A stretch of DNA of 52,102 bases, taken from the IMG/VR virus record IMGVR_UViG_3300013233_000325, positions 1 to 52,102 of that record. The stretch is one strand, 5' to 3'. The notes under the pieces are model-generated. The model was not told the origin of the DNA, ran no database searches, and saw nothing but the letters and a program-made list of their open reading frames with translations. Below, piece after piece: positions 3,980 through 42,745 of the stretch (its first letter is position 1; each line of letters opens with the position of its first letter). The translations under genes and the position numbers were made by a program. This DNA is from a virus.

Positions 3980-5231
3980 AATCCCTCACGCTTGCACGCG
4001 CGTAGTCCATCTTCACGATTTCGGTCATACCGGACGGGTTCTCTCGATTCTTCGCCCAGTGGAGTTTGCAAATCCCTCGTCTTTTGTCGGTCTCGGTCAT
4101 GTTGAGCGAAACGATGACGTCGGCGATGGGCCCGACTTCGAAACACTCACCCAGGTCACCCATCCCTGCTACCGCCGTTTTCAGTCCGTCTCGGTTCGTC
4201 TGATGCGCAGACCACAGGGGGACGTAACGTTCACTCGCCATGGCGTGCATGTCTTGGAACACCGACGCGATTTCGAATCTCTTGGCATCGTACTTCCTGG
4301 CGGAGCGTAGCAAGGCACCATAATCGACGATGATCAGGTCAGGAGAGAATCCGTCCCTCTGTGCGATCAGGTCTAGGTGAGCTTCCAGCGTGGCGGGTGT
4401 GGCCTTGTGCATGGGGTAAGACTTCACCATTAGATTCTCTGCGAGCTTAGAATCCACCAGCTTTTTCATCTTCTTCCATACCGTGCCCTGCTTGGTGCGG
4501 AGTTCCTTTTTCGTCACGTTCAGAATCGACATGTCGTATCGGCGTTCAACTGAAGCGGTGCCCATTTCCAACGTGTAGTGGATGACACGGCGACCGGTCA
4601 TCATCGCAGCCTTACCCAGGTTGACGAGCATAGTCGTCTTTCCTGTGTTCGGCGCAGCCAGGATGACACCTAGTTCGGTCGGGGCCAGCCCACCTTCCAG
4701 GTGCTCGTCCATCACAGCCAACCCCGTCGTTACGGTGCCAGGGCGTTCGTCCTCCTTGTACCTCTTCAACCGGTCGCGCATTCCCTCCGACCAGACGGAG
4801 CCAGGGGAGTTCTCCTCATCGGCGAAGAACGCCGCTTGCAAGAGTTCGGCCCGCAGTTCCTCGAAATCCGCATCGTCCAGAATACCGGCCATGCGCTCGA
4901 TGGCAAGTTCCAGGTTCCTTTTCTGCGCGAATTCTAGAACCTTGTCTCGGACGTATCGTACTTGCTTTGGTTTTTGGTAGTAGTCTTCAAGTATGAGGTC
5001 AACATCGTCGGCCTCCATCCCAGCTTTCTCCATTTCGACCTGAATAACAACATCGTCAGGTGCAGACGCGTAGGTGTCAAAGTGGTCAAGTGTGAGAGCG
5101 ACAATCGCCTTCTCGGAGTCACTGGGAAAGAGATCAACAGATAAACATTTCCGGCGATCAATCAAGAAAGCCGGATCGCGTAACATTGCCCTAATGAGGG
5201 ACGTGCGAAATCCAGGGCTGAGAACTTCCAC
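3966..5231 (-). CDS. DnaB-like replicative DNA helicase
   Basis: A 421-aa RecA-fold helicase starting with GTG (5231-5229), directly abutting the TGA of the HAD gene. An N-terminal helical domain (residues 1-150) resembles the DnaB N-domain. Walker A is LAAPNTGKTT at about residue 190, Walker B is DLIIVDYGAL, and the sensor region is LWSAHQTNRDG. It unwinds DNA at the replication fork and should load or partner with the primase two genes downstream. A C-terminal KLHWAKNRENPSG matches the arginine-finger region of phage DnaB-type helicases. Confidence 0.92.
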   Translation of the reverse strand: MEVLSPGFRTSLIRAMLRDPAFLIDRRKCLSVDLFPSDSEKAIVALTLDHFDTYASAPDDVVIQVEMEKAGMEADDVDLILEDYYQKPKQVRYVRDKVLEFAQKRNLELAIERMAGILDDADFEELRAELLQAAFFADEENSPGSVWSEGMRDRLKRYKEDERPGTVTTGLAVMDEHLEGGLAPTELGVILAAPNTGKTTMLVNLGKAAMMTGRRVIHYTLEMGTASVERRYDMSILNVTKKELRTKQGTVWKKMKKLVDSKLAENLMVKSYPMHKATPATLEAHLDLIAQRDGFSPDLIIVDYGALLRSARKYDAKRFEIASVFQDMHAMASERYVPLWSAHQTNRDGLKTAVAGMGDLGECFEVGPIADVIVSLNMTETDKRRGICKLHWAKNRENPSGMTEIVKMDYARASVRDFEDA

Positions 5232-5678
5232 TCAGGGTGTCCAAGGTTTGAAAAATTTAAGTTCGTCCAAAGTAGGATACTTTCCGGTGAAAGTGATAAC
5301 CCTGTCGTCAAGAGCCACTACAGCGGGCGGTTTCACTTTCGGAAAGTACACACTGTTACGGATCACGCGGTCCGCGTTCCACAACATCGACCTGTGGAAG
5401 TTCATGTACCGGCGAATAAGCCAATCACGCATGGCGTCTATCCCGCCCTGTTGGTGGGACCTGGACGAATGAACATGAAGGTCAAAAAACTCGTCTCTGA
5501 TGAGTTCTGTAATCCATTTCATCGCTCCTTCGATGGGGTCGCCTTTGCACACGCTGGCACCTTCCCACCTGTGGTAAGTCATCAACGTGCCGTCAAAGTC
5601 TATGCACAGGATCGGTTTCCCCTTGTACGCGTCAGGCGTCACCCCGTCTACGTTTTCCCATTCGTAACGGTTCATCAT
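5232..5678 (-). CDS. HAD-superfamily phosphatase
   Basis: An ATGATGA overlap with the kinase-MazZ stop sets the start at 5678 (or 5675), giving about 148 aa. HAD motif I is CIDFDGTL (nucleophile and acid Asp), motif II is HVHSSRS, and motif III/IV is KVKPPAVVALDDR. The substrate cannot be read from the sequence. Because it lies inside the purine-modification cluster and no DatZ is present, a nucleotide phosphatase acting on dAMP or another purine nucleotide is a reasonable hypothesis. A polynucleotide 3'-phosphatase is the alternative. Confidence 0.85.
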   Translation of the reverse strand: MMNRYEWENVDGVTPDAYKGKPILCIDFDGTLMTYHRWEGASVCKGDPIEGAMKWITELIRDEFFDLHVHSSRSHQQGGIDAMRDWLIRRYMNFHRSMLWNADRVIRNSVYFPKVKPPAVVALDDRVITFTGKYPTLDELKFFKPWTP

Positions 5679-6730
5679 ACGTCTACCTGCTCGTTGCACA
5701 TGAGACACCGTTGGCATTGTGACCTCAAGTCCCACGCACTTGACCGGTGTTCACATGGTTTCGCTTTGCCAATATGCTCATCATCTTTGCCAACCTTGTT
5801 CCTGGCGGAGTAACCACCGGAACGGGCCCGTGCTTTGTTGATTTCGAGCTTCTTGTAATAAAGCGATGACACGTCATGCGCCGACATACCCAGGGACATG
5901 CACGCCGAGAAGAAGAAATGTAACATGTCTACCATTTCGACCCTGCACGCTCTGAGGTCCGCACCGTCGATCGTCCACCATTTCTCGGGAATCTCGTCTA
6001 TCGCCTCCACACACTCCTTTTTGAGTTGTCGTAGAAAGCGACCGGTCCACTCCACGTAGGGTTGGGTGATAGGGGCAGTGTCTTTACTCGACGCCATGCG
6101 CCTCATTTCTGATAAAGAGGGTTGAATCCCCTGCATTCGAAAAGACTCATCCACAAACTCCAGGTGCGCGTCCATCATCGATTCGAGGTCCGCAGAAGAA
6201 GGACCCCCAAACGTTGATACGGTCTTCGTTTCCAGGTCGGCGATTTTGACGTCCATACCGGATGTGGCCAACGACGCCAGGACATCAACGAAAACCCCGT
6301 CCTCATGTCGTAATCGAGCGTTGATCAACTTTTCGTCATCCGGGTTTTGGGCCCTCTGTGCAATTCGTCGTTTCCGTTCTTCCTCGGAACAGGTGCAGTA
6401 AACGATCTTATGTCGAACGTTCTGGTTTCTGTCTGCGAGTTCTTTAATAAAAGCAACTTGGCTCACCGACCTGGGCATGGAGTCCACCACGAGCGTATCC
6501 CCGTCAGAGAGGTTTTCAAAACACTCCTCGACGAGACCGCGCACGTAATCTTCGGTCATGTCCGGTGTAACTGGGTTTTCGGATTCCGCCATGTCAGACT
6601 CTCCAAACTTCTCGCGGCACGCACGGCCCGTGTGAAGGACTGCGTAATTCACGAACTTTGCGAGCCTTTCGGCTTCGACACTCTTACCGACACACGTTTT
6701 GCCGGTGAGCCAAATCACTTCTCGATTCAT
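5675..6730 (-). CDS. mazZ: NMP kinase-like / MazZ (MazG-dUTPase fold) fusion protein
   Basis: 351 aa, starting at the ATG whose ATGA overlaps the PurZ stop. The N-terminal domain (1-180) is an adenylate/nucleotide kinase-like P-loop protein with GKTCVGKS at about 10-17, a DTLVVDSMPRS segment and an Arg-rich lid (EEERKRRIAQR). The C-terminal domain (about 215-310) has all-alpha NTP-pyrophosphohydrolase motifs: ECVEAIDEIPEKWW and VEMVDMLHFFF, giving ExxE and ExxD metal sites as in MazG/dimeric dUTPase and MazZ. In Z-genome phages MazZ converts dGTP to dGMP for PurZ. A C-terminal Cys-rich tail (CEHR then CQRC, C) may bind zinc. The kinase could phosphorylate dZMP or dGMP; this is inference. Confidence 0.85.
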   Translation of the reverse strand: MNREVIWLTGKTCVGKSVEAERLAKFVNYAVLHTGRACREKFGESDMAESENPVTPDMTEDYVRGLVEECFENLSDGDTLVVDSMPRSVSQVAFIKELADRNQNVRHKIVYCTCSEEERKRRIAQRAQNPDDEKLINARLRHEDGVFVDVLASLATSGMDVKIADLETKTVSTFGGPSSADLESMMDAHLEFVDESFRMQGIQPSLSEMRRMASSKDTAPITQPYVEWTGRFLRQLKKECVEAIDEIPEKWWTIDGADLRACRVEMVDMLHFFFSACMSLGMSAHDVSSLYYKKLEINKARARSGGYSARNKVGKDDEHIGKAKPCEHRSSAWDLRSQCQRCLMCNEQVDV

Positions 6731-7839
6731 GCGATCTCCACCATGTCTTCCATCTTGGGACCGGTACCTAGCAGGGAGACTTTCGGGGGTCGGCCCCACG
6801 CGTCTATGCCACACCCGTGAATTTCTGTAACAAACGACTTGGCACTCGACGACAGAAGGCTCTGAGATCGGACCGCATAATTGCTTTTATGAATGTAGTT
6901 CACAAAATTGACGAAAAGATCCGTGGGGGCGCACACGCGCAGGAACTTTTCGTATTGCATCCACGACCAGGAGAAGATTCGCCGTTGACGCTTGGTCACG
7001 GTGGTGAGTTCAGGGCGCAGGGTCTGACCCATGAGGTCTGACAGTTCATCCCACTCGTATTCCACTTGGTCTCTGTAGTAAGGACCGGAGTCCCCAGTTT
7101 TCACTCCCGCATCGTCGTAGATGTGGCCCACTCGAATCGGGAACGCACGGAGTGATCCCCACACGCGACCGAGACAATGAGGCGGAAGACCCAGGTTGTT
7201 GAGAGCCGATGCCGTAGTGACGTCTCGACTCGTAACGTAAGGGTACGAATGCCCGTGGTTCAGCGACAGGTCGAATCCCTGTGCTGTCTCCGCGAGAACC
7301 GTACCACCGCCACGCAGGGTAGACGCCAGATAGGCCGTCGTGTCCTGGATGAACGGTTTGAGTTCTGGAATGTCCTTAGCAGTCGGGGCTCTGCGCATTA
7401 CTTTACGCACCAGGGCAGCACCAACTCCTTTCTGTGTTGACCCGATGAATCCGGTACCCTTGAGTTCCGATCGCTCCGCGAGAGCATCGTCCTCAGTGAT
7501 GATTCCGGCCATAGGGTGGATTGCCAGTCGATCCGCGACTCCGTACTTATCGAGTTCGTCGATTTCCTGGAGTAGCTTTTCGACCGTGATTCCTGCACTC
7601 GCACCGATTATCACCATGGCATCCAGGTTGACAACCGAACACGGCAGGTGGTGGAGCACGTGGGAAGTGTCATCCTCCAAAACGAACGTGTGACCGGCAT
7701 TGGAGTTGAAATCAGCCGTGACGGCTGCTAACTCTTCCCGGTCACCCAGGTACGCCGCGAGCTTTCCTTTGCCCGTGGAGCCCCATTGTCCGTCAAGAAC
7801 GATGTTGCACTTCCCCTTATCGAGGAAGCGGTTGGTCAT
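6727..7839 (-). CDS. purZ: PurZ-type adenylosuccinate synthetase homologue
   Basis: 370 aa, shorter than bacterial PurA (about 430). The P-loop reads GQWGSTGKGK (residues 17-26), where PurA has WGDEGKGK. The catalytic Asp is therefore Ser21, the substitution reported for PurZ enzymes that join Asp to dGMP, giving N6-succino-2-amino-dAMP on the way to 2-aminoadenine (Z). NAGHT (His50) and GTQKGVGAA are conserved. The product would be processed by host PurB. It is overlapped by ATGA on both sides, downstream of SSB and upstream of the MazZ fusion. A PurA acting on IMP is unlikely because the base Asp is missing. Confidence 0.92.
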   Translation of the reverse strand: MTNRFLDKGKCNIVLDGQWGSTGKGKLAAYLGDREELAAVTADFNSNAGHTFVLEDDTSHVLHHLPCSVVNLDAMVIIGASAGITVEKLLQEIDELDKYGVADRLAIHPMAGIITEDDALAERSELKGTGFIGSTQKGVGAALVRKVMRRAPTAKDIPELKPFIQDTTAYLASTLRGGGTVLAETAQGFDLSLNHGHSYPYVTSRDVTTASALNNLGLPPHCLGRVWGSLRAFPIRVGHIYDDAGVKTGDSGPYYRDQVEYEWDELSDLMGQTLRPELTTVTKRQRRIFSWSWMQYEKFLRVCAPTDLFVNFVNYIHKSNYAVRSQSLLSSSAKSFVTEIHGCGIDAWGRPPKVSLLGTGPKMEDMVEIA

Positions 7840-8936
7840 TTTTTGCCTTTTTTACCCTTCTTGCTGGACTTCTTCTTTGAAGTCTTCTTCTTACTGGACT
7901 TGCCCTTTTTGGCCTTGTTGTAAGCCTCCAGAGCTTTAGGAGTCAGAGTAACGAAGTCGTCGCGGCCCATGGTGTAGGTCTCACCATCGAGTTCCGCCTT
8001 GACATCGTATTCCCCGTCCTCGTACCCGGTGATTTCGCCGTGGGACTTGCCTTCGTCGAGTTCGAACTTGCAGATCGTACCGTTGGGCTCGACGTCCTCC
8101 TCCTCCTCTTCTTCGTCGTCCTCGGGCTCTTCTTCCTCTTCCTCTTCCTCTTCCTCTTCTTCCTCGTCGTCGGACTCCTCTTCCTCCTCTTCCTCCTCTT
8201 CTTCCTCGTCATCCTCGGGGGCGTCGGATTCCTCTTCTTCCTCTTCTTCCTCTTCTGACTCCTCTTTATCGGAATCGTCCTTCTTGTGACCGGCTTCCAA
8301 GTAGTCGGCGTCGAACAGATCTTTCAGGTCCTCGGCCACGTCTTCTTCGAGTTCCGGCGACTTTTTCGCAGTCCGCACAACCATCTTGTACATGTTGGAC
8401 GGTTCCAACTTGCTGTTGCGGGTCACGATGATGTCACACCCTTTGCACCCGAAGATGTCTTCGGACTCGTACTCACCAGACGTGAGGAGTTCGAGGATCT
8501 TCGCAAAGAGGGACTGGGGCATGGTCAGGACTTGCATCCCGCCTTCCAGGTTCTTCATGTCGATCGCGTTGACGTGGAACTGACGCGTGACTTTCATCCG
8601 CTTGCCAGCCGACTGTTCCGACTTCTTGCTGGAACCCATAAGTTCCGACGCCTCAGCACACGTTTTGCACTTCTTGCCTGAGCAAGGACGAGGCGGTTCA
8701 TTCGGAACGAAGTGCTGCAGGGTCTCCCGGTGGATTTCCTCCTGTGTGCTTCCGACCTTCGGTGCGCCAGGAGCGCCCTTGATGTAGAAGCCTTTGCCGT
8801 AGTCGCCTTTGGTGACTTTGTGATTGAACGTGAAAACCCGAATGTCGGTCCTCCCGTCCTTGAGTTTCAGGAACCCGCCACCGCGAGTTTCGATGTTGTC
8901 CTGAGTTGCTTTGTATCGGTCTAAATTGAGAGCCAT
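7836..8936 (-). CDS. gp32-like single-stranded DNA-binding protein with acidic and Lys-rich tails
   Basis: 366 aa. The N-terminal 190 residues resemble T4 gp32-type SSBs: a GGGFLKLKDGRTDIRVF start, an H plus CSGKKCKTC cluster for zinc (about 75-90), and basic/aromatic stretches. A very long Glu/Asp tract (about residues 225-285) follows, then a small SH3/KOW-like unit (GEITGYEDGEYDVKAELDG), then a Lys/Ser tail. Acidic SSB tails recruit replication proteins; the acid-barrel-Lys arrangement here is unusual. The coding strand is an almost pure purine run over the acidic tract. Confidence 0.85.
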   Translation of the reverse strand: MALNLDRYKATQDNIETRGGGFLKLKDGRTDIRVFTFNHKVTKGDYGKGFYIKGAPGAPKVGSTQEEIHRETLQHFVPNEPPRPCSGKKCKTCAEASELMGSSKKSEQSAGKRMKVTRQFHVNAIDMKNLEGGMQVLTMPQSLFAKILELLTSGEYESEDIFGCKGCDIIVTRNSKLEPSNMYKMVVRTAKKSPELEEDVAEDLKDLFDADYLEAGHKKDDSDKEESEEEEEEEEESDAPEDDEEEEEEEEEEESDDEEEEEEEEEEEEEPEDDEEEEEEDVEPNGTICKFELDEGKSHGEITGYEDGEYDVKAELDGETYTMGRDDFVTLTPKALEAYNKAKKGKSSKKKTSKKKSSKKGKKGKK

Positions 8937-8938
8937 GA

Positions 8939-9193
8939 TTACTTACCCTTGCGGGCCTTCTTTTTCCTACTGGGGGTTTTACGCTTCGCGGGGGCTTCGC
9001 CCTTCGCTTCTGCGAGTTGTTTGGACAGTTCCTTTTCGACGAAGTGCACGCAAGCTGCGAGCGCATCCTCGGGATCGGTATCATCCAGAATAGGGAGGGT
9101 AATGCCAACGTCGATTCTTTGAGATTCGAAGTTGCCGAGATTGAGGGTCACTCCCTGAGAGTAACGCACTTCGCCGTTTGTGTTACGCGGCAT
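8939..9193 (-). CDS. Small Lys-rich replication-cluster protein, 84 aa
   Basis: The ATG at 9193 is preferred because it just overlaps the polymerase stop (9185-9183); the frame is open further upstream. The sequence begins MPRNTNGEVRYSQGVTLNLG, has a core ISLPILDD-like strand and helix (EDALAACVHFVEKEL), and ends in a Lys/Arg tail. It lies 2 nt upstream of the SSB gene. Probably a DNA-binding or SSB-partner protein; no family assigned. Confidence 0.75.
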   Translation of the reverse strand: MPRNTNGEVRYSQGVTLNLGNFESQRIDVGITLPILDDTDPEDALAACVHFVEKELSKQLAEAKGEAPAKRKTPSRKKKARKGK

Positions 9194-11561
9194 GTTCAGT
9201 GATTTGGTGCTTGAGGTTCGGCCCGCTAGTGACATCTGCAATCAGCGGGATCGTAAGGAAGGGGAACATTTCGGTCGTCCATTTCGTCATCCAGTAGTGG
9301 AGCAGACTGCTGACGGTCCGGATTTCTTCCGGGGGACAATCGATAATAATAGAGTCATGCACTTGGCCGATGATTACCGCGTCCAGCCCGAGACGGAAAA
9401 TGTCATCTTCGACCATTTGCATAACGATGAGGGTGATGTCGCTGCCGAGACTTTGAATCTCGTGGTTTGTGGCTTGACGTTCGGCCCTCCACCGTTCGTA
9501 GTTGACATCGGATCGGATCCCCGGCAAGTGACGTGGGCGACCAAGCTTGGACACCGCCATTTGGGAATGGTACGCTGCATCCCTTGTGTCTTGAATCCAC
9601 TTATCAACAGCTTTGTGGGTGCCGAAATAGGTATCCAACAGAGCTTGTGCGTAACGGGTGTCCCCAGGTCGGCCCAGTTGGATGGCCAACTTCTTGGGAC
9701 CAATGCCATAGATCACGCCGAATCCCGCCCGTTTCCCTTCCATTCGTTGAGTCTTCGTGACTTTCTCAGGCAGAATGCCATAGATCTTCGCCGCCGTGTT
9801 TGTGTGGGCGTCGATTCCCTTGGAGAACGTTTCGTGTAGGACCGGCTCTCCACTTAGTGAACCAAGGAGTCGAACTTCCAACTGCGAGAAGTCAGCCTGA
9901 ATGATAGCGCCTTTCGGGAAACGACTGGTAAAGACCTCTTTAACCCGTCCTTCCACTGCGATGTTTTGCAGGTTTGGGTCCTGGCTCGACAATCGACCCG
10001 TCACTACAACATCTTGTCGGAATGAGGAGTTGATGCATGAATCGGGGCGCAGCCTTAACCGGTAGTCTTTGAGATCCCGAACAGCGTACTGCAGAGACCT
10101 CAATGCCGTGAGACGACCGGCGATTTTGTGATCGATGGCCCAAATCCGCAGGTATTCGCCTTTCGTGGACGGTCCACCACCTGGGGTTTCACCCAGGACC
10201 GGCAGTTTCAGAACAGTGAACAACAGCACCTGCATCTGTTTGGTACTGTCCACATTGAACAACACGCCCGGTTTCAGTCCACAGATTCTCTTGGCTTTCT
10301 TGACCGCAGGGTAGGATTCGAGTTTGGCCCGTGCTTTGTCCTTCTCCTCGTCCAGTTCCTTTATGAGTTGGTCCGCGTTTGCGCGGTTAATGTACATGCC
10401 GTTGAGTTCGACACGGGCGAGAGTCTTGCATGCACCAAGGGAAATGTTGCGGTAGTTCCACAACATTTGTTCATGGTCGGGGTGCTGCATGGCTTCTTCA
10501 TAAAGACCATCGCGGAGCCTGTATGTAACATCACAGTCACCAGCGCAGTAGGGCCAAATGTCGTCCATAGGCCCATTTGCGTAGGCCTCGGACACGCCCA
10601 TTTCCGCCTTCAATTCCTCCATCTTCGTATCATACCCGCCAATCGTCGTGTACTGGTACGCCAGGGGAGAAAGAGCGTGCGCCTCCTCTTCCCTCAGGTA
10701 GGAGTGGAGTAGGATTGTGTCATCGTCCAGGTTTCGGACGGGCACGCCCCAAATGGCGTGTGCGACCTTGATCTCGAATTTCGCGTTATGACACGTTTTT
10801 CGACAGGGGTGAGATCCCACCCACCTAGCACACTCTATCCACGCCTCGGGACAGGCTTCGAGGTCGATGACAAAAGCCTCCCCCTCACGTACCGCGACAC
10901 CCATGCATCGGATCCGGAAGTCAGGATCACACATGTTGAGGCCGGTAGCTTCGAAGTCGAACGTAGGGCGATCGAAAACGCCAATGCCAGCAAGGCGTCG
11001 CTTCGCCTCTTTGCGATCCGTAACGAGGTCCCAGGTTGTGTCACTGAGGTCGATTTCTTTGTTTGCATAGATCTCACGCACAGAGCGCATCTGAGTGATG
11101 AACTCCCGCATTTTGCCCGGAGTGTGAGCCATCTGGTCTGGGTGGAACACTGGGACGCATTTCCGCTCACCCAGGTCCTCGCGAGTCTTCACCTGCCGAC
11201 CGGCCCATGACGTGATCTTTTTGAGATCGGTCACGGCCTCGAATGCGTGAGACCCCAGAGGCACGACCAGCGACGGGTCCAGCCGTTTGATCTCGGCTGT
11301 AATTCGCTCCCGGTTTGCCGCGATCATCGCCTTTGTGGGCTTGCGACCCCTCACCAAGTAATCATCTACGATCACGAGGTCTACGATTGTCACCTTGTCG
11401 GCAAATCCGTCCTTGTTGAATTCCGAGACTAGAGCCTCACCACCTGAGTCGTGTCGGCAAACCGTGGTCTTTTCTTCATCGCAGAAGTTCGGCCACACGA
11501 CAAGCACAACATTCGACTTGCGGATCTTCCGCTTCCGTTTGATGCCTTTGCGTGCGATCAT
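9183..11561 (-). CDS. dpoZ: Family A DNA polymerase (DpoZ-like) with UDG-like N-terminus
   Basis: 792 aa. Residues 1-165 resemble a uracil-DNA-glycosylase fold (VPLGSHAFEAV, then VPVFHPDQ). A DEDD 3'-5' exonuclease follows: Exo I FDFEATGLN (about 192), Exo II CHNAKFE where the usual Asp is Glu, Exo III YCAGDCD. The palm has motif A ADFSQLEVRLLG (about 553), motif B RMEGKRAGFGVIYG (about 605) and motif C QVHDSIIID (about 732), with Ser replacing the usual Glu. No 5'-nuclease domain is present. With PurZ and MazZ nearby it is the likely DpoZ that incorporates dZTP. Start by ATGA overlap with the nuclease gene. Confidence 0.93.
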   Translation of the reverse strand: MIARKGIKRKRKIRKSNVVLVVWPNFCDEEKTTVCRHDSGGEALVSEFNKDGFADKVTIVDLVIVDDYLVRGRKPTKAMIAANRERITAEIKRLDPSLVVPLGSHAFEAVTDLKKITSWAGRQVKTREDLGERKCVPVFHPDQMAHTPGKMREFITQMRSVREIYANKEIDLSDTTWDLVTDRKEAKRRLAGIGVFDRPTFDFEATGLNMCDPDFRIRCMGVAVREGEAFVIDLEACPEAWIECARWVGSHPCRKTCHNAKFEIKVAHAIWGVPVRNLDDDTILLHSYLREEEAHALSPLAYQYTTIGGYDTKMEELKAEMGVSEAYANGPMDDIWPYCAGDCDVTYRLRDGLYEEAMQHPDHEQMLWNYRNISLGACKTLARVELNGMYINRANADQLIKELDEEKDKARAKLESYPAVKKAKRICGLKPGVLFNVDSTKQMQVLLFTVLKLPVLGETPGGGPSTKGEYLRIWAIDHKIAGRLTALRSLQYAVRDLKDYRLRLRPDSCINSSFRQDVVVTGRLSSQDPNLQNIAVEGRVKEVFTSRFPKGAIIQADFSQLEVRLLGSLSGEPVLHETFSKGIDAHTNTAAKIYGILPEKVTKTQRMEGKRAGFGVIYGIGPKKLAIQLGRPGDTRYAQALLDTYFGTHKAVDKWIQDTRDAAYHSQMAVSKLGRPRHLPGIRSDVNYERWRAERQATNHEIQSLGSDITLIVMQMVEDDIFRLGLDAVIIGQVHDSIIIDCPPEEIRTVSSLLHYWMTKWTTEMFPFLTIPLIADVTSGPNLKHQITEHAA

Positions 11562-38113: not shown

Positions 38114-38880
38114 TGTTCCAAAAATTACTTGCACTTCATAATCCAGTTCACACGCAATTCCAATGCGAAGAACTGATCGTGCACAAAGAAGGAGTGTCCC
38201 ATTGGGGCATGCTCCGCCAGTCAATTCGAGAACTTGTCACGCGCGTAACGGTGTGTGCCAACCTTTCATTCGAGTTGAAAGAGATGCAAATCGACATGGA
38301 CGAAGCTAAGTCCAAATCTTCGGACGGCGGAAACCCTAGTATATTTGGCAGACGCCGACACGCTCTTAAGTACGAGAAACTCAAGTTTCAAATTCCTTTC
38401 GTGGAGCACGACCTGGAATGCCGAATCGAGGAATTCCGTCATTTTTACGCGTGCGCCACGGCTTTGTATGGTGTTATTGAAAACATGAAAGTGAACGCAG
38501 AAGGCGGGGCGTTCGGTTTGGACTCAATGCAGGAACTAGAATACCTTCATTGGGCTCAACATTGGGGGTCGCAGATCGCAACACGACGGGCGTCCGGGCA
38601 GGGTGTGTCGGCTGATCTAATGCGCCACCTATTGACCTTGCCTGACCGATACGCTGGAATTGCCAGATCCGCTTTGGAGGGGGACCCCGAAGAGTGGATG
38701 AAGAACAACACCCCAGAACTGCCTAGTCTTGAGAAAGAACAAATCACGGTCGTAGAGGCCAGGAGAATGATCGATGGTTTTAACCCTAAGCGGAGCCTTG
38801 GGCGAAATCTTGGAGGGGCAATCGCTCCGTCAAGCAACTCTTTGGAAGATCGTGGTAGCCGACGCGGGTCTCACGCTTAG
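38113..38880 (+). CDS. Hypothetical tail-tip protein, 255 aa
   Basis: Starts at the ATG overlapping the kelch stop. Helical and charged (CANLSFELKEMQIDMDEAKS, FVEHDLECRIEEFRHFYACA), with a basic disordered end. Overlaps the hub gene by 107 nt, an unusually long same-strand overlap. It may be a chaperone or adaptor for the kelch or hub protein. Confidence 0.7.
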   Translation: MFQKLLALHNPVHTQFQCEELIVHKEGVSHWGMLRQSIRELVTRVTVCANLSFELKEMQIDMDEAKSKSSDGGNPSIFGRRRHALKYEKLKFQIPFVEHDLECRIEEFRHFYACATALYGVIENMKVNAEGGAFGLDSMQELEYLHWAQHWGSQIATRRASGQGVSADLMRHLLTLPDRYAGIARSALEGDPEEWMKNNTPELPSLEKEQITVVEARRMIDGFNPKRSLGRNLGGAIAPSSNSLEDRGSRRGSHA

Positions 38881-39595
38881 GTACACCGACCACGATCGAC
38901 CGATCCAGTTTGATGAAAGTGACGATGCATCCGGATCTGTCCAAGAGTACACTCCTTTTTACGGGTGGGATGTTTCTGCTCGCCAGCTTCAATCTGGTTT
39001 GGCAGAAGCCAACCTCGACACGTTTGGCATCATTAGTTCGGCACAGGTTACCCATAGTGACCTGCGAGCCGGAAGGTACGATAACGGAGCAGTCACCGAA
39101 TTTCTCGTGGACTGGCGAGTTCCTCACCGAGGAGCGGTCCGAAAGCGTACGTATTCAATCGGTGGCATTCGTTTCACAGGTGAATTCTGGATTGCCGAAC
39201 TCAATGGGCTCCCTAATCGTCTGCAGAATAGAATCGGCGCAATCTTCACGAGGAATTGTGGGTACACCCTGGGTGTTGATCGATGCCCGGTGATTATCGG
39301 TTCATTTGATGTGGAAGAAGTTCGGGTTGTGGCGGCAAGTCAGGACGCAACTGAACCGAAGAGGAAATTCCAAGCTACAATAGGGGATTTGCCCACCCAG
39401 GTTGATGATTACTACAAGTACGGTACTATCACCTGGACCACAGGTCTCAATTCTGTCATCGCGCACGTGTCAACGTGCAAAGTGTACAGCGACACGGCCC
39501 GAGACATTGAGCTTTACGAGAACACTCCGTTCGACATTGGTGATAATGACAAATTCACCATCGTGGCTGGGTGTGATAAACTCTTTTCCACCTGA
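38774..39595 (+). CDS. Tail hub protein, DUF2163/BR0599 family, up to in-frame UGA
   Basis: 273 codons to UGA at 39593. N-terminus MVLTLSGALGEILEGQSLRQ; then the family's RNCGYTLGVDRCPVIIG (two Cys) and AGCDKLFST. In lambda gpL and relatives four Cys bind a 4Fe-4S cluster; here three are encoded and the fourth position (GCDKxFxTC-R-x-KF) is UGA. The frame continues with the conserved C-terminus. The hub sits under the tail tip; GTA homologue is orfg13. Confidence 0.85.
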   Translation: MVLTLSGALGEILEGQSLRQATLWKIVVADAGLTLRYTDHDRPIQFDESDDASGSVQEYTPFYGWDVSARQLQSGLAEANLDTFGIISSAQVTHSDLRAGRYDNGAVTEFLVDWRVPHRGAVRKRTYSIGGIRFTGEFWIAELNGLPNRLQNRIGAIFTRNCGYTLGVDRCPVIIGSFDVEEVRVVAASQDATEPKRKFQATIGDLPTQVDDYYKYGTITWTTGLNSVIAHVSTCKVYSDTARDIELYENTPFDIGDNDKFTIVAGCDKLFST

Positions 39596-39685
39596 CGAGA
39601 CACTTTCAACGTAGCAGTTAGCTACGGCGGAAATCACCTGATGCCCGGAACCGATCGTGTCCTCAAGACGCCCGGAACTCGATAA
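39593..39685 (+). other. In-frame extension after UGA (hub C-terminus)
   Basis: In the hub's frame the UGA is followed by RDTFNVAVSYGGNHLMPGTD and then RVLKTPGTR to TAA at 39685. Family members read TCRxKFxNxxNFxGxPHxPGxD, so the match is nearly complete and the UGA replaces the conserved Cys. The extension overlaps the NlpC/P60 gene start by 29 nt and removes an odd 61-nt gap. Recoded UGA (Sec) or a recent nonsense mutation are the choices. Confidence 0.75.
39610..39626 (+). promoter_or_regulatory. SECIS-like hairpin after UGA (hub gene)
   Basis: CGTAGC (39610-39615), loop AGTTA, GCTACG (39621-39626): a perfect 6-bp stem. The loop starts 20 nt after the UGA and has G as its second base, within the bacterial SECIS limits as I recall them. 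Chance occurrence is possible; covariation would be needed. Confidence 0.45.
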
Positions 39686-40109
39686 AGTTGTTGAGGCGGC
39701 TCGCTTGTGGATGGACACTCCGTTCAAACACCAGGGGCGCAGCAAAGCAGGAATTGATTGCGTCGGGCTGCAGGTCTTCGCAGGTCTGGCAGCTGGTGCG
39801 GTAATTAACGATTTCACGGATTATTCTCTGTATCCTAATCCTGAACAACTTCTTAAAAATTTTGAAGAACAAATGGACCCAATTCCGGCGCACGAAGCCG
39901 GACCTGGGGACGTCCCAATCTTCTGGATTAAGGAACGTAAGGTTCCTAAACATGTTGGCATTCTTACCACAGGCCCCTACTTCATCCACACGCATTCTTC
40001 AATACGCGTTGGGAAGCAGAAGGGCAAGGTCTGTGAAGTGACCCTTGACGACAGATGGGCTCCTAGAGTCCACTCTTTCTGGAGATACCGTTGGCAACAA
40101 TCGCACTAA
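39657..40109 (+). CDS. NlpC/P60 cell-wall peptidase (tail tip)
   Basis: 150 aa, GTG start at 39657. Catalytic Cys in GRSKAGIDCVGL, catalytic His in KHVGILT, and a polar partner at FIHTHSS. GTA homologue orfg14. It would open peptidoglycan for tail passage. Overlaps the tip gene by 19 nt. Confidence 0.9.
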   Translation: MSSRRPELDKVVEAARLWMDTPFKHQGRSKAGIDCVGLQVFAGLAAGAVINDFTDYSLYPNPEQLLKNFEEQMDPIPAHEAGPGDVPIFWIKERKVPKHVGILTTGPYFIHTHSSIRVGKQKGKVCEVTLDDRWAPRVHSFWRYRWQQSH

Positions 40110-42745
40110 CAGGCGCAGGGATCATTGGTCCCGCTACCGCACTCAACCCGTTCGCCGCAGCCGGTATCGGCCTAGCGGCTGCTGTCTTTGATCAGCAAGT
40201 CCTTCTGCCCTTCCTGTTCCCTCCGGATCCGGTTGTAGGGCCGAGAATCAACGAACTGCAGATTGGCGGTGCAGACGAAGGACACCCTCGTAACAACGTC
40301 TATGGTCGCAAGTGTCGTGTTGCTGGCTCGATCATTTGGTCGTCAGAACTGAAAGAAACGAAAACCACAGACGAGGTTGGTGGTAAGGGTACCGGACAAG
40401 AGGTAGAAAACTACACCTACTCGATCGATTTGGCCCTTGAATTTGCGGTCGGACCGGCTGACGGTCTGGGCATAGAAGCGTTTGGGCGGATTTGGGCCGA
40501 TGCAGGCGTGGTCTATGATGATGACGTCGATAAGTCTATAAGTGGAACGGTGATCTCGGTTGAAGCGATTGTAGAGGGATACTTTAGTGTCTCCTCAAAC
40601 GCTTTTGTCACCTTACAAGTCACTATTACTCTGAAGAGCACGTCTGCTTCGGCAGATCTTTCACTCCTGAAGTCCGGTTATGATGCCGTGATTACGGGTT
40701 TCACTGAAACCGACTACAACGGTACATTCCGCTGCCTCTCATCTTCCAAATCTGGGTCAAATTCAGAAGCCGAATTCGAAATCATCAACACCGCGAGCGT
40801 TCTTGGGGAGGCGGCTGGCAACTCGATTACGGTTGTGCAAGGTACTGCCCAGGGTGTGCCGAAATACGACCCCTCTCGCATGGATTCGAATCCTGTCTTG
40901 CATTTAGGCACGGATGTTCAAACAGCAGACAGCTTGATCGAGGCCACTGAGGGAGCGGGGAACGTTCCGGGGTACCAAAGGTCAGTTTACATTACAATCG
41001 AGGACTATCAGCTTGAAGCTCATGGTAACCGAGTACCAACCACATGGACAGCTGAACTAATACGATCGTCAACGGCTACACTGCAAGATACGATGGAAGA
41101 TATTTTGGAGGAGACGGATCTGTTAAGTTCTCAGTATGATTGCAGCGCTCTGTCGGCAATTGTCGAAAAAGGCTATGCGACGCGGGGCCCGCAAACCGCC
41201 ATTTCGAAGCTGCAACCCTTGATGATGTTCTATAACATTCTCGCCAGGGAAAACAATGGAATGTTGGTCTTCTTTGAGCGCAAGAACGCATCGGTGAAGG
41301 CAATACCTCTTGGCGACTTGTCAGCCCGAGAAGGACAGGAAGAACCGCAGAACGATCCGGCTATGTGGGAGAAATCGCCGGTCCTTGTTCCTCCTCGTCA
41401 GGTATACGTAAAGCATATCGACACGGAGAACGACTACCAACCCGGTGAGCAATCCGAAACGCACAACAACCCCGGTAGTAGTACCGAGTCGAAAACCGTT
41501 GATATTACGATTTCGATGAACGGCGGCGAAGCACGAGATCTGGCAGCGACCATCCTTTGGATCGCATGGATTTCTCGGGACTTAATTGAAGTGGCGATTC
41601 CTCCGCGTCACATGGATTTGCAAGAGAACGACCTTATCACGTTTACTTATGACGGGACTGATTACCGGTTCTTGATTGTTGGTATTCGTGAAGGTGTCAA
41701 TGGTGTGTCTCTCTTGGAAGCCACACCGGAACTTTCGTCGGCCACCACGCACAGTAGTCCTCACGAAGCTCCGCGAGGAACGCTGTCTTCACTGTACTCC
41801 GCCCCGGATATGAAAGTCGAAGTCATCGACCTTTCATCCCTCCAGGATCAGTATGCTGAAATGACCGGCGTTTTCCTGGCTGCGACCACCCGCGTCCCGG
41901 ATCAACTCTACAAAGGTGGGTCCATTCATCAGTCCACAGACGACGGCGTAACGTATAATCCGATCGTCAGTCCCTACACTACTCAGGCAACCATGGGCGT
42001 TGCCACGGTGTCTCTTAACGACTCAACCAACCTACACTCCTTCTGGGATCCCGTCTCCTCTGTCACCGTCAAACTCTTCGAAGGAACGCTGTCATCCAAG
42101 GTGGCCAGTGAGGTTCGAAACGGCGCGAACCGCGCCCTCATCGGGGACGAAATCGTTGGGTTCCTCTCCGCCGTCTTGGAAGCCGACGGGACCTACACTA
42201 TTTCCCAGTTCCTTCGTGGTCTTGGCACCACGGAATACGCATATGGAGAACACGTCGATGGAGAGAGGTTCATCCTCCTGAACGCGGTTGGTATCCAATT
42301 CGTCCCTCACTCCCTGGCTGCCGTGGGCACCACCCGGAACTATAAGGCCGTGAGTATCGGCGGAGGGCTCACCGACGCCATCGCTCGCCCTCAGGTCCTG
42401 GCAGGGGCTACCGTGCTTCCCCCAGACGCCGTGAATCTCCGGGGCAAGAGAAACAGTTCCTCGGGGGACTGGACGCTGACATGGCGTCGCCGGTCCCGGT
42501 CGAACTTCACGTGGTTCAAAACCCCAAACCCCCCTCTCCTGGAAGATACTGAGTCCTACGAAGTCGAAATCATGAATGGCACAACTGTCGTCCGTACGAT
42601 TACGGGGATTACGTCTTCCACTACTCCCTACACGAGTGCTCAACAGTCCACCGACTTTGGTGGTGACCAAACGACACTCAAATTCCGCGTTTACCAGATT
42701 TCGGCCCGAGTTGGTCGAGGCCGCAAGGCCGAAAGGACCGTCTAA
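40091..42745 (+). CDS. Tail tip/central fibre protein (GTA orfg15/gpJ-like)
   Basis: TTG start at 40091 with GGAGAT six nt upstream; 884 aa. N-terminal membrane-like segment (ALNPFAAAGIGLAAAVF) then NNVYGRKCRVAGSIIWSSEL, typical of the orfg15/TipJ family; C-terminal fibronectin-like segment (GDWTLTWRRRSRSNFTWF). Shorter than GTA orfg15 (about 1300 aa). It closes the tail tip and contacts the host. Confidence 0.85.
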   Translation: MATIALTGAGIIGPATALNPFAAAGIGLAAAVFDQQVLLPFLFPPDPVVGPRINELQIGGADEGHPRNNVYGRKCRVAGSIIWSSELKETKTTDEVGGKGTGQEVENYTYSIDLALEFAVGPADGLGIEAFGRIWADAGVVYDDDVDKSISGTVISVEAIVEGYFSVSSNAFVTLQVTITLKSTSASADLSLLKSGYDAVITGFTETDYNGTFRCLSSSKSGSNSEAEFEIINTASVLGEAAGNSITVVQGTAQGVPKYDPSRMDSNPVLHLGTDVQTADSLIEATEGAGNVPGYQRSVYITIEDYQLEAHGNRVPTTWTAELIRSSTATLQDTMEDILEETDLLSSQYDCSALSAIVEKGYATRGPQTAISKLQPLMMFYNILARENNGMLVFFERKNASVKAIPLGDLSAREGQEEPQNDPAMWEKSPVLVPPRQVYVKHIDTENDYQPGEQSETHNNPGSSTESKTVDITISMNGGEARDLAATILWIAWISRDLIEVAIPPRHMDLQENDLITFTYDGTDYRFLIVGIREGVNGVSLLEATPELSSATTHSSPHEAPRGTLSSLYSAPDMKVEVIDLSSLQDQYAEMTGVFLAATTRVPDQLYKGGSIHQSTDDGVTYNPIVSPYTTQATMGVATVSLNDSTNLHSFWDPVSSVTVKLFEGTLSSKVASEVRNGANRALIGDEIVGFLSAVLEADGTYTISQFLRGLGTTEYAYGEHVDGERFILLNAVGIQFVPHSLAAVGTTRNYKAVSIGGGLTDAIARPQVLAGATVLPPDAVNLRGKRNSSSGDWTLTWRRRSRSNFTWFKTPNPPLLEDTESYEVEIMNGTTVVRTITGITSSTTPYTSAQQSTDFGGDQTTLKFRVYQISARVGRGRKAERTV

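Follow-up and report, generated by a model that had tools for sequence, protein, structure and literature searches.

The baseplate hub gene of the 52,102-nt virus record analysed here, the whole of which is called the window, carries an in-frame UGA at the codon where its homologues encode the fourth cysteine ligand of a [4Fe-4S] cluster. In the leading interpretation, this UGA (39593-39595) would be a selenocysteine (Sec) codon, to which we give an even chance; this weighting is a matter of judgement and was not computed. The fuller proposal, namely that the hub is a selenoprotein of the phage virion in which Sec ligates the tail-tip [4Fe-4S] cluster, having been inserted by the Sec machinery of the host via a SECIS in the hub coding sequence, is slightly more doubtful. 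Directly seen are that the UGA occupies an invariant Cys column, that the frame behind it is open and encodes a recognizable C-terminus, and that a hairpin there conforms to the model of the bacterial SECIS (bSECIS). The selenocysteine reading leads because it explains the position of the UGA, the open tail, and the hairpin together.

The hub ORF (38774-39595) encodes 273 amino acids, the last of which are GCDKLFST, and it ends at the UGA, which is hub codon 274. Beyond it, the frame is open for 29 further codons (RDTFNVAVSYGGNHLMPGTDRVLKTPGTR) before TAA is reached at 39683-39685, thereby overlapping the NlpC/P60 ORF, which begins with GTG at 39657, by 29 nt; overlaps of like kind are found in several relatives. 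Both the continuation to the conserved C-terminus and the overlap had been claimed in an earlier note on this DNA, and reading frame and alignment bear them out. With the UGA read through, the hub has 303 amino acids and, the UGA being read as Cys, scores 150.4 bits against TIGR02218, which places it above the curated NCBIfam cut-off of 80.5 bits and within the GTA-like baseplate hubs. The Pfam domains Phage_phiJL001_Gp84_N and Phage_BR0599 and a match to PHROG 778 (tail assembly protein) are also found. Judged by these matches, the 303-amino acid read-through product is a predicted baseplate hub of the GTA/lambda-gpL type. Its neighbourhood is that of a normal GTA-like tail module, consisting of the tape measure, a glycoside hydrolase-like protein, the hub, NlpC, and a megatron-like protein. 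The features of the region are compiled in Table 1.

Table 1. Features of the hub region of the window.
Feature	Position	Strand	Basis or remark
Baseplate hub, part before the UGA, with Cys 162, 171, and 267	38774..39592	+	TIGR02218, Pfam
In-frame UGA, codon 274, aligned with the fourth of the conserved cluster Cys residues	39593..39595	+	Alignment of homologues
29-codon continuation resembling the conserved C-terminus, which is the clip region of solved hubs	39596..39682	+	Alignment; more diverged than most relatives
Extended stem-loop UUUC-AA-CGUAGC-AGUUA-GCUACG-GC-GGAA	39604..39632	+	Fold of the first 45 nt after the UGA, -11.3 kcal/mol
Candidate bSECIS apical hairpin, 6-bp stem, loop AGUUA	39610..39626	+	Loop begins 20 nt downstream of the UGA and has G as its second base
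NlpC/P60-like tail peptidase	39657..40109	+	29-nt overlap with the read-through frame
GTA-megatron-like tail protein (phrog_4271)	40091..42745	+	Next in the baseplate module

Of the four cluster ligands of TIGR02218 hubs, three are encoded as Cys in the window, namely C162 (NCGY), C171 (DRCP), and C267 (GCDK), just as the earlier note had listed them, while the fourth codon is the UGA. Lambda gpL binds [4Fe-4S] via Cys173, Cys182, Cys205, and Cys212 (PMC10721106), and in the hubs of RcGTA and R4C the cluster was seen on four Cys residues (PMC7296036, PMC10276861). The spacings of 9 and 7 within the pairs 162/171 and 267/274 are identical to those of 173/182 and 205/212 in gpL, and this agreement, together with the alignment to the cluster hubs of RcGTA and R4C, indicates that the UGA replaces the fourth cluster ligand. 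Lambda gpL differs from the hub of the window by having Cys at all four positions and a far shorter stretch between the pairs. RcGTA gp13 (PDB 6tba) and the R4C hub (8gtc), which are matched by sequence with E values of 3.8e-23 and 1e-20, share with it the four cluster positions and the gene order hub, NlpC, megatron, and such solved hubs are the best Foldseek matches of the hub model; they are set apart by the UGA for the fourth ligand, an identity of only about 25%, and the replacement of two near-invariant Asn residues in the window. By analogy with these solved relatives, a cluster would be present in the hub of the window. The AlphaFold model is of poor quality around the cluster site (block means of about 41-53 for residues 151-180 and 271-300), too poor for the cluster geometry to be judged.

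In an alignment of 12 hubs, Cys is invariant at positions 162, 171, 267, and 274, the UGA of the window being entered as Cys. The earlier note had held that the ORF stops exactly where relatives have the Cys of the motif GCDKxFxTC and had proposed an alignment of homologues at this column as a check. The claim proved right: Cys was found in 91/91 sequences of a first set (80 TGC, 11 TGT) and in 101 of the 103 distinct sequences of a larger one, the two exceptions being the window itself and the record IMGVR_UViG_3300023223_000861 (L108). Hence the pattern known from bacterial selenoproteins, UGA at a conserved Cys with conserved flanks, is found here, with a 3' flank that is recognizable yet diverged. 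The coincidence of UGA and cluster Cys is what prompted the earlier note, and as evidence it is not fully independent. A code with reassigned TGA (tables 4 and 25) was rejected since TGA is the stop of 32 of the 62 main ORFs in the window, so that the genetic code is not altered.

According to the bSECIS model, a loop of 3-9 nt with a G within its first two positions is carried by a stem of 4-16 bp, with 16-37 nt between UGA and loop and an MFE of at most -7.5 (PMC13188914). The candidate hairpin downstream of the UGA lies within all of these limits (loop 5, stem 6, G at position 2, spacing 20, -11.3 kcal/mol); it is devoid of the common N1-N2 loop pair, having A-A instead. The test was devised after the UGA had been found, and how surprising the hairpin is depends on the yardstick. 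The loose SECIS model is matched by 21% of all TGAs in the window and an equally stable apical stem by 2.9% of them; among the 101 Cys homologues, eight conform to the bSECIS model, 3/101 conform to it with a G[GU] core, and one has an equally stable stem. Tails simulated from the family columns with the codon usage of the window reach the stability of the hairpin in 0.67% of cases (P 0.0067), and versions of the window's tail recoded with synonymous codons do so in 2.5% (P 0.025). A search of Rfam yielded no match. Two codons of the stem, GTA for Val at +6 and AGC for Ser at +9 counted from the Cys position, occupy columns in which 99/103 and 98/103 sequences, respectively, have Asn, and no model-conforming hairpin is left if an Asn codon is put back at either of them. 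This exchange could be expected of a coding sequence constrained to form an RNA structure; drift downstream of a genuine stop could have produced it as well.

In a Sec-using host, SelB with Sec-tRNA(Sec) would read the UGA at 39593, aided by the hairpin just downstream. The product would be the 303-amino acid hub with Sec in place of Cys as the fourth cluster ligand, in which Sec274 would hold the [4Fe-4S] cluster of the tail tip together with C162, C171, and C267, and read-through would also supply the C-terminal clip region. We infer the host Sec machinery, the insertion of Sec, and the ligation of the cluster by selenium; a tRNA-Sec was not found in the 52-kb virus record. The suggestion of the earlier note that the fourth ligand is Sec or a read-through Cys is upheld as regards the identity of the column, and the bSECIS-type hairpin argues for recoding, while Sec itself is what we infer. 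Against the selenocysteine reading stand the lack of a tRNA-Sec, the single metagenomic record, the divergence of the tail, which is also expected from decay behind a stop, the share of TGAs in the window that fit the loose SECIS model, the want of other UGA hubs in the scans described below, and, for L108, the TGT of its relatives and its non-conforming hairpin. That L108 has UGA at the same codon speaks for the reading.

The UGA of L108 is located at the same codon (4536-4538, minus strand) of a hub that is 33% identical to that of the window and whose tail is intact up to the junction with its own NlpC gene. Its nearest relatives (L166/L167), which are 65% identical, have TGT at this codon, and the hairpin of L108 fails the bSECIS model for lack of a G at the loop start. 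L108 was the one other UGA hub detected in three pattern scans of IMG/VR, the patterns covering part of the hub family. A scan of 84,980 species genomes for GC[DN]KxxxT-UGA-xxxF, a pattern that likewise covers only part of it, gave none. A matched control with TAA/TAG at the neighbouring Lys codon gave 12 matches and no hub; one case against none is too few for a test, and L108 is suggestive only. Three UGA-pattern matches from sample 3300005859, 43 matches from the scan of species-genome contigs, and all other matches of the third viral scan were discarded as unrelated sequence. PF09356 (BR0599) was matched about 120 times in genomes of Desulfobacterota (395) and Pseudomonadota (398), twice with TAA and never with an internal TGA.

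That the UGA stems from an error in sequencing or assembly or from a nonsense mutation that arose recently, with TGC or TGT as the true or ancestral codon and a hairpin arisen by chance, is a rather unlikely but serious alternative. There is one record without reads, a single base separates TGC or TGT from TGA, L108 is an isolated UGA at the same codon without a SECIS, and the loose hairpin model is matched by chance in the eight Cys homologues mentioned above. However, no internal stop occurs in 29,717 codons across 109 homologous hub loci, so a stop within the hub gene is rare; only four of the 104 possible single-base nonsense changes in the gene (4%) would fall on the four conserved cluster Cys; and the hairpin has a P of about 0.01-0.03. 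Still less probable, though with a hold in the data, is a true stop, by which the hub would be truncated at Thr273 with three cluster Cys, the sequence behind it being a decaying remnant and the leader of NlpC. UGA regularly terminates genes of this genome, and among 98 ungapped tails only one is more diverged than that of the window, which has kept 5/10 near-invariant residues, compared to 29/37 before the UGA, whereas other aligned hubs have lost two such tail residues at most. Tail divergence and loss of Asn fit both an imposed RNA structure and decay behind a stop. On the other hand, the frame runs uninterrupted to where hubs usually end and still encodes F, G, PG, and D, and the fourth Cys is present in every checked homologue except L108. 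In addition, the cluster has been described as essential to the assembly of tails (PMC10276861), so that losing cluster and clip would be expected to impair the tail tip.

Programmed or leaky read-through of the UGA, in which a near-cognate tRNA for Trp, Cys, or another amino acid would yield a long form of the hub beside a short one, is very improbable. UGA followed by C, as it occurs here, is a leaky stop context, and a hairpin 3' of a stop can promote read-through. Such a mechanism does not account for the position of the UGA on a cluster Cys, however, and Trp at position 274 would not serve as a cluster ligand.

Close relatives of the hub were not found in IMG/VR, nor were phage relatives of the window at the DNA level; the collections may omit records very near to the window, and this lack is therefore not evidence. 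The relatives that were found reach at most 62% identity in the capsid and about 35% in the hub. Only two records with a detectable hub are among the IMG/VR phages nearest by capsid (62% and below), and neither has internal stops.

Apart from the hub, a probable 2-aminoadenine (Z) genome cassette is located at 5675-11561 on the minus strand of the window. It comprises a PurZ-like synthetase (217.6 bits to NF038379, below the cut-off of 300; 33-38% identity to annotated phage PurZ/adenylosuccinate synthetases), a protein with matches to guanylate kinase and MazG-type pyrophosphohydrolase (possible MazZ), and a family A DNA polymerase (9183-11561, minus strand), in which a uracil-DNA-glycosylase-like domain (residues 41-152, E 8.6e-9) precedes the exonuclease and polymerase domains. 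In the same replication and nucleotide region, a small protein resembling phage phosphoheptose isomerase is encoded (5232-5735, minus strand; phrog_1238, E 2.6e-12). An ORF of 1035 amino acids at 28092-31199 matches tail terminator proteins (phrog_179) with its last 140 residues or so, its large N-terminal part being without PHROG match.

With bacterial selenoproteins that use a bSECIS, for example, formate dehydrogenases, the hub of the window has in common a UGA at the Cys of homologues and a G-loop hairpin about 20 nt downstream. It is unlike them in being a structural protein of a phage, known here from sequence, in which the residue would be a putative Fe-S ligand, whereas theirs acts in redox catalysis. 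Phages are also linked to selenocysteine decoding by a tRNA-Sec gene reported in Basilisk-like Bacillus phages (PMC6145125); in contrast to the window, they carry that gene, and no selenoprotein was shown there. The literature searched yielded no account of a selenoprotein in a phage, and phages are not mentioned in a 2026 review of the prokaryotic selenoproteome (PMC13188914). Further UGA-containing hubs would be concealed by standard gene calling as truncated hubs. If the selenocysteine reading is true, a selenoprotein would be part of the phage particle, with Sec serving as a structural Fe-S ligand, and the phage would be tied to selenium-using hosts; the unexplained role of the hub cluster would become testable via its redox change.
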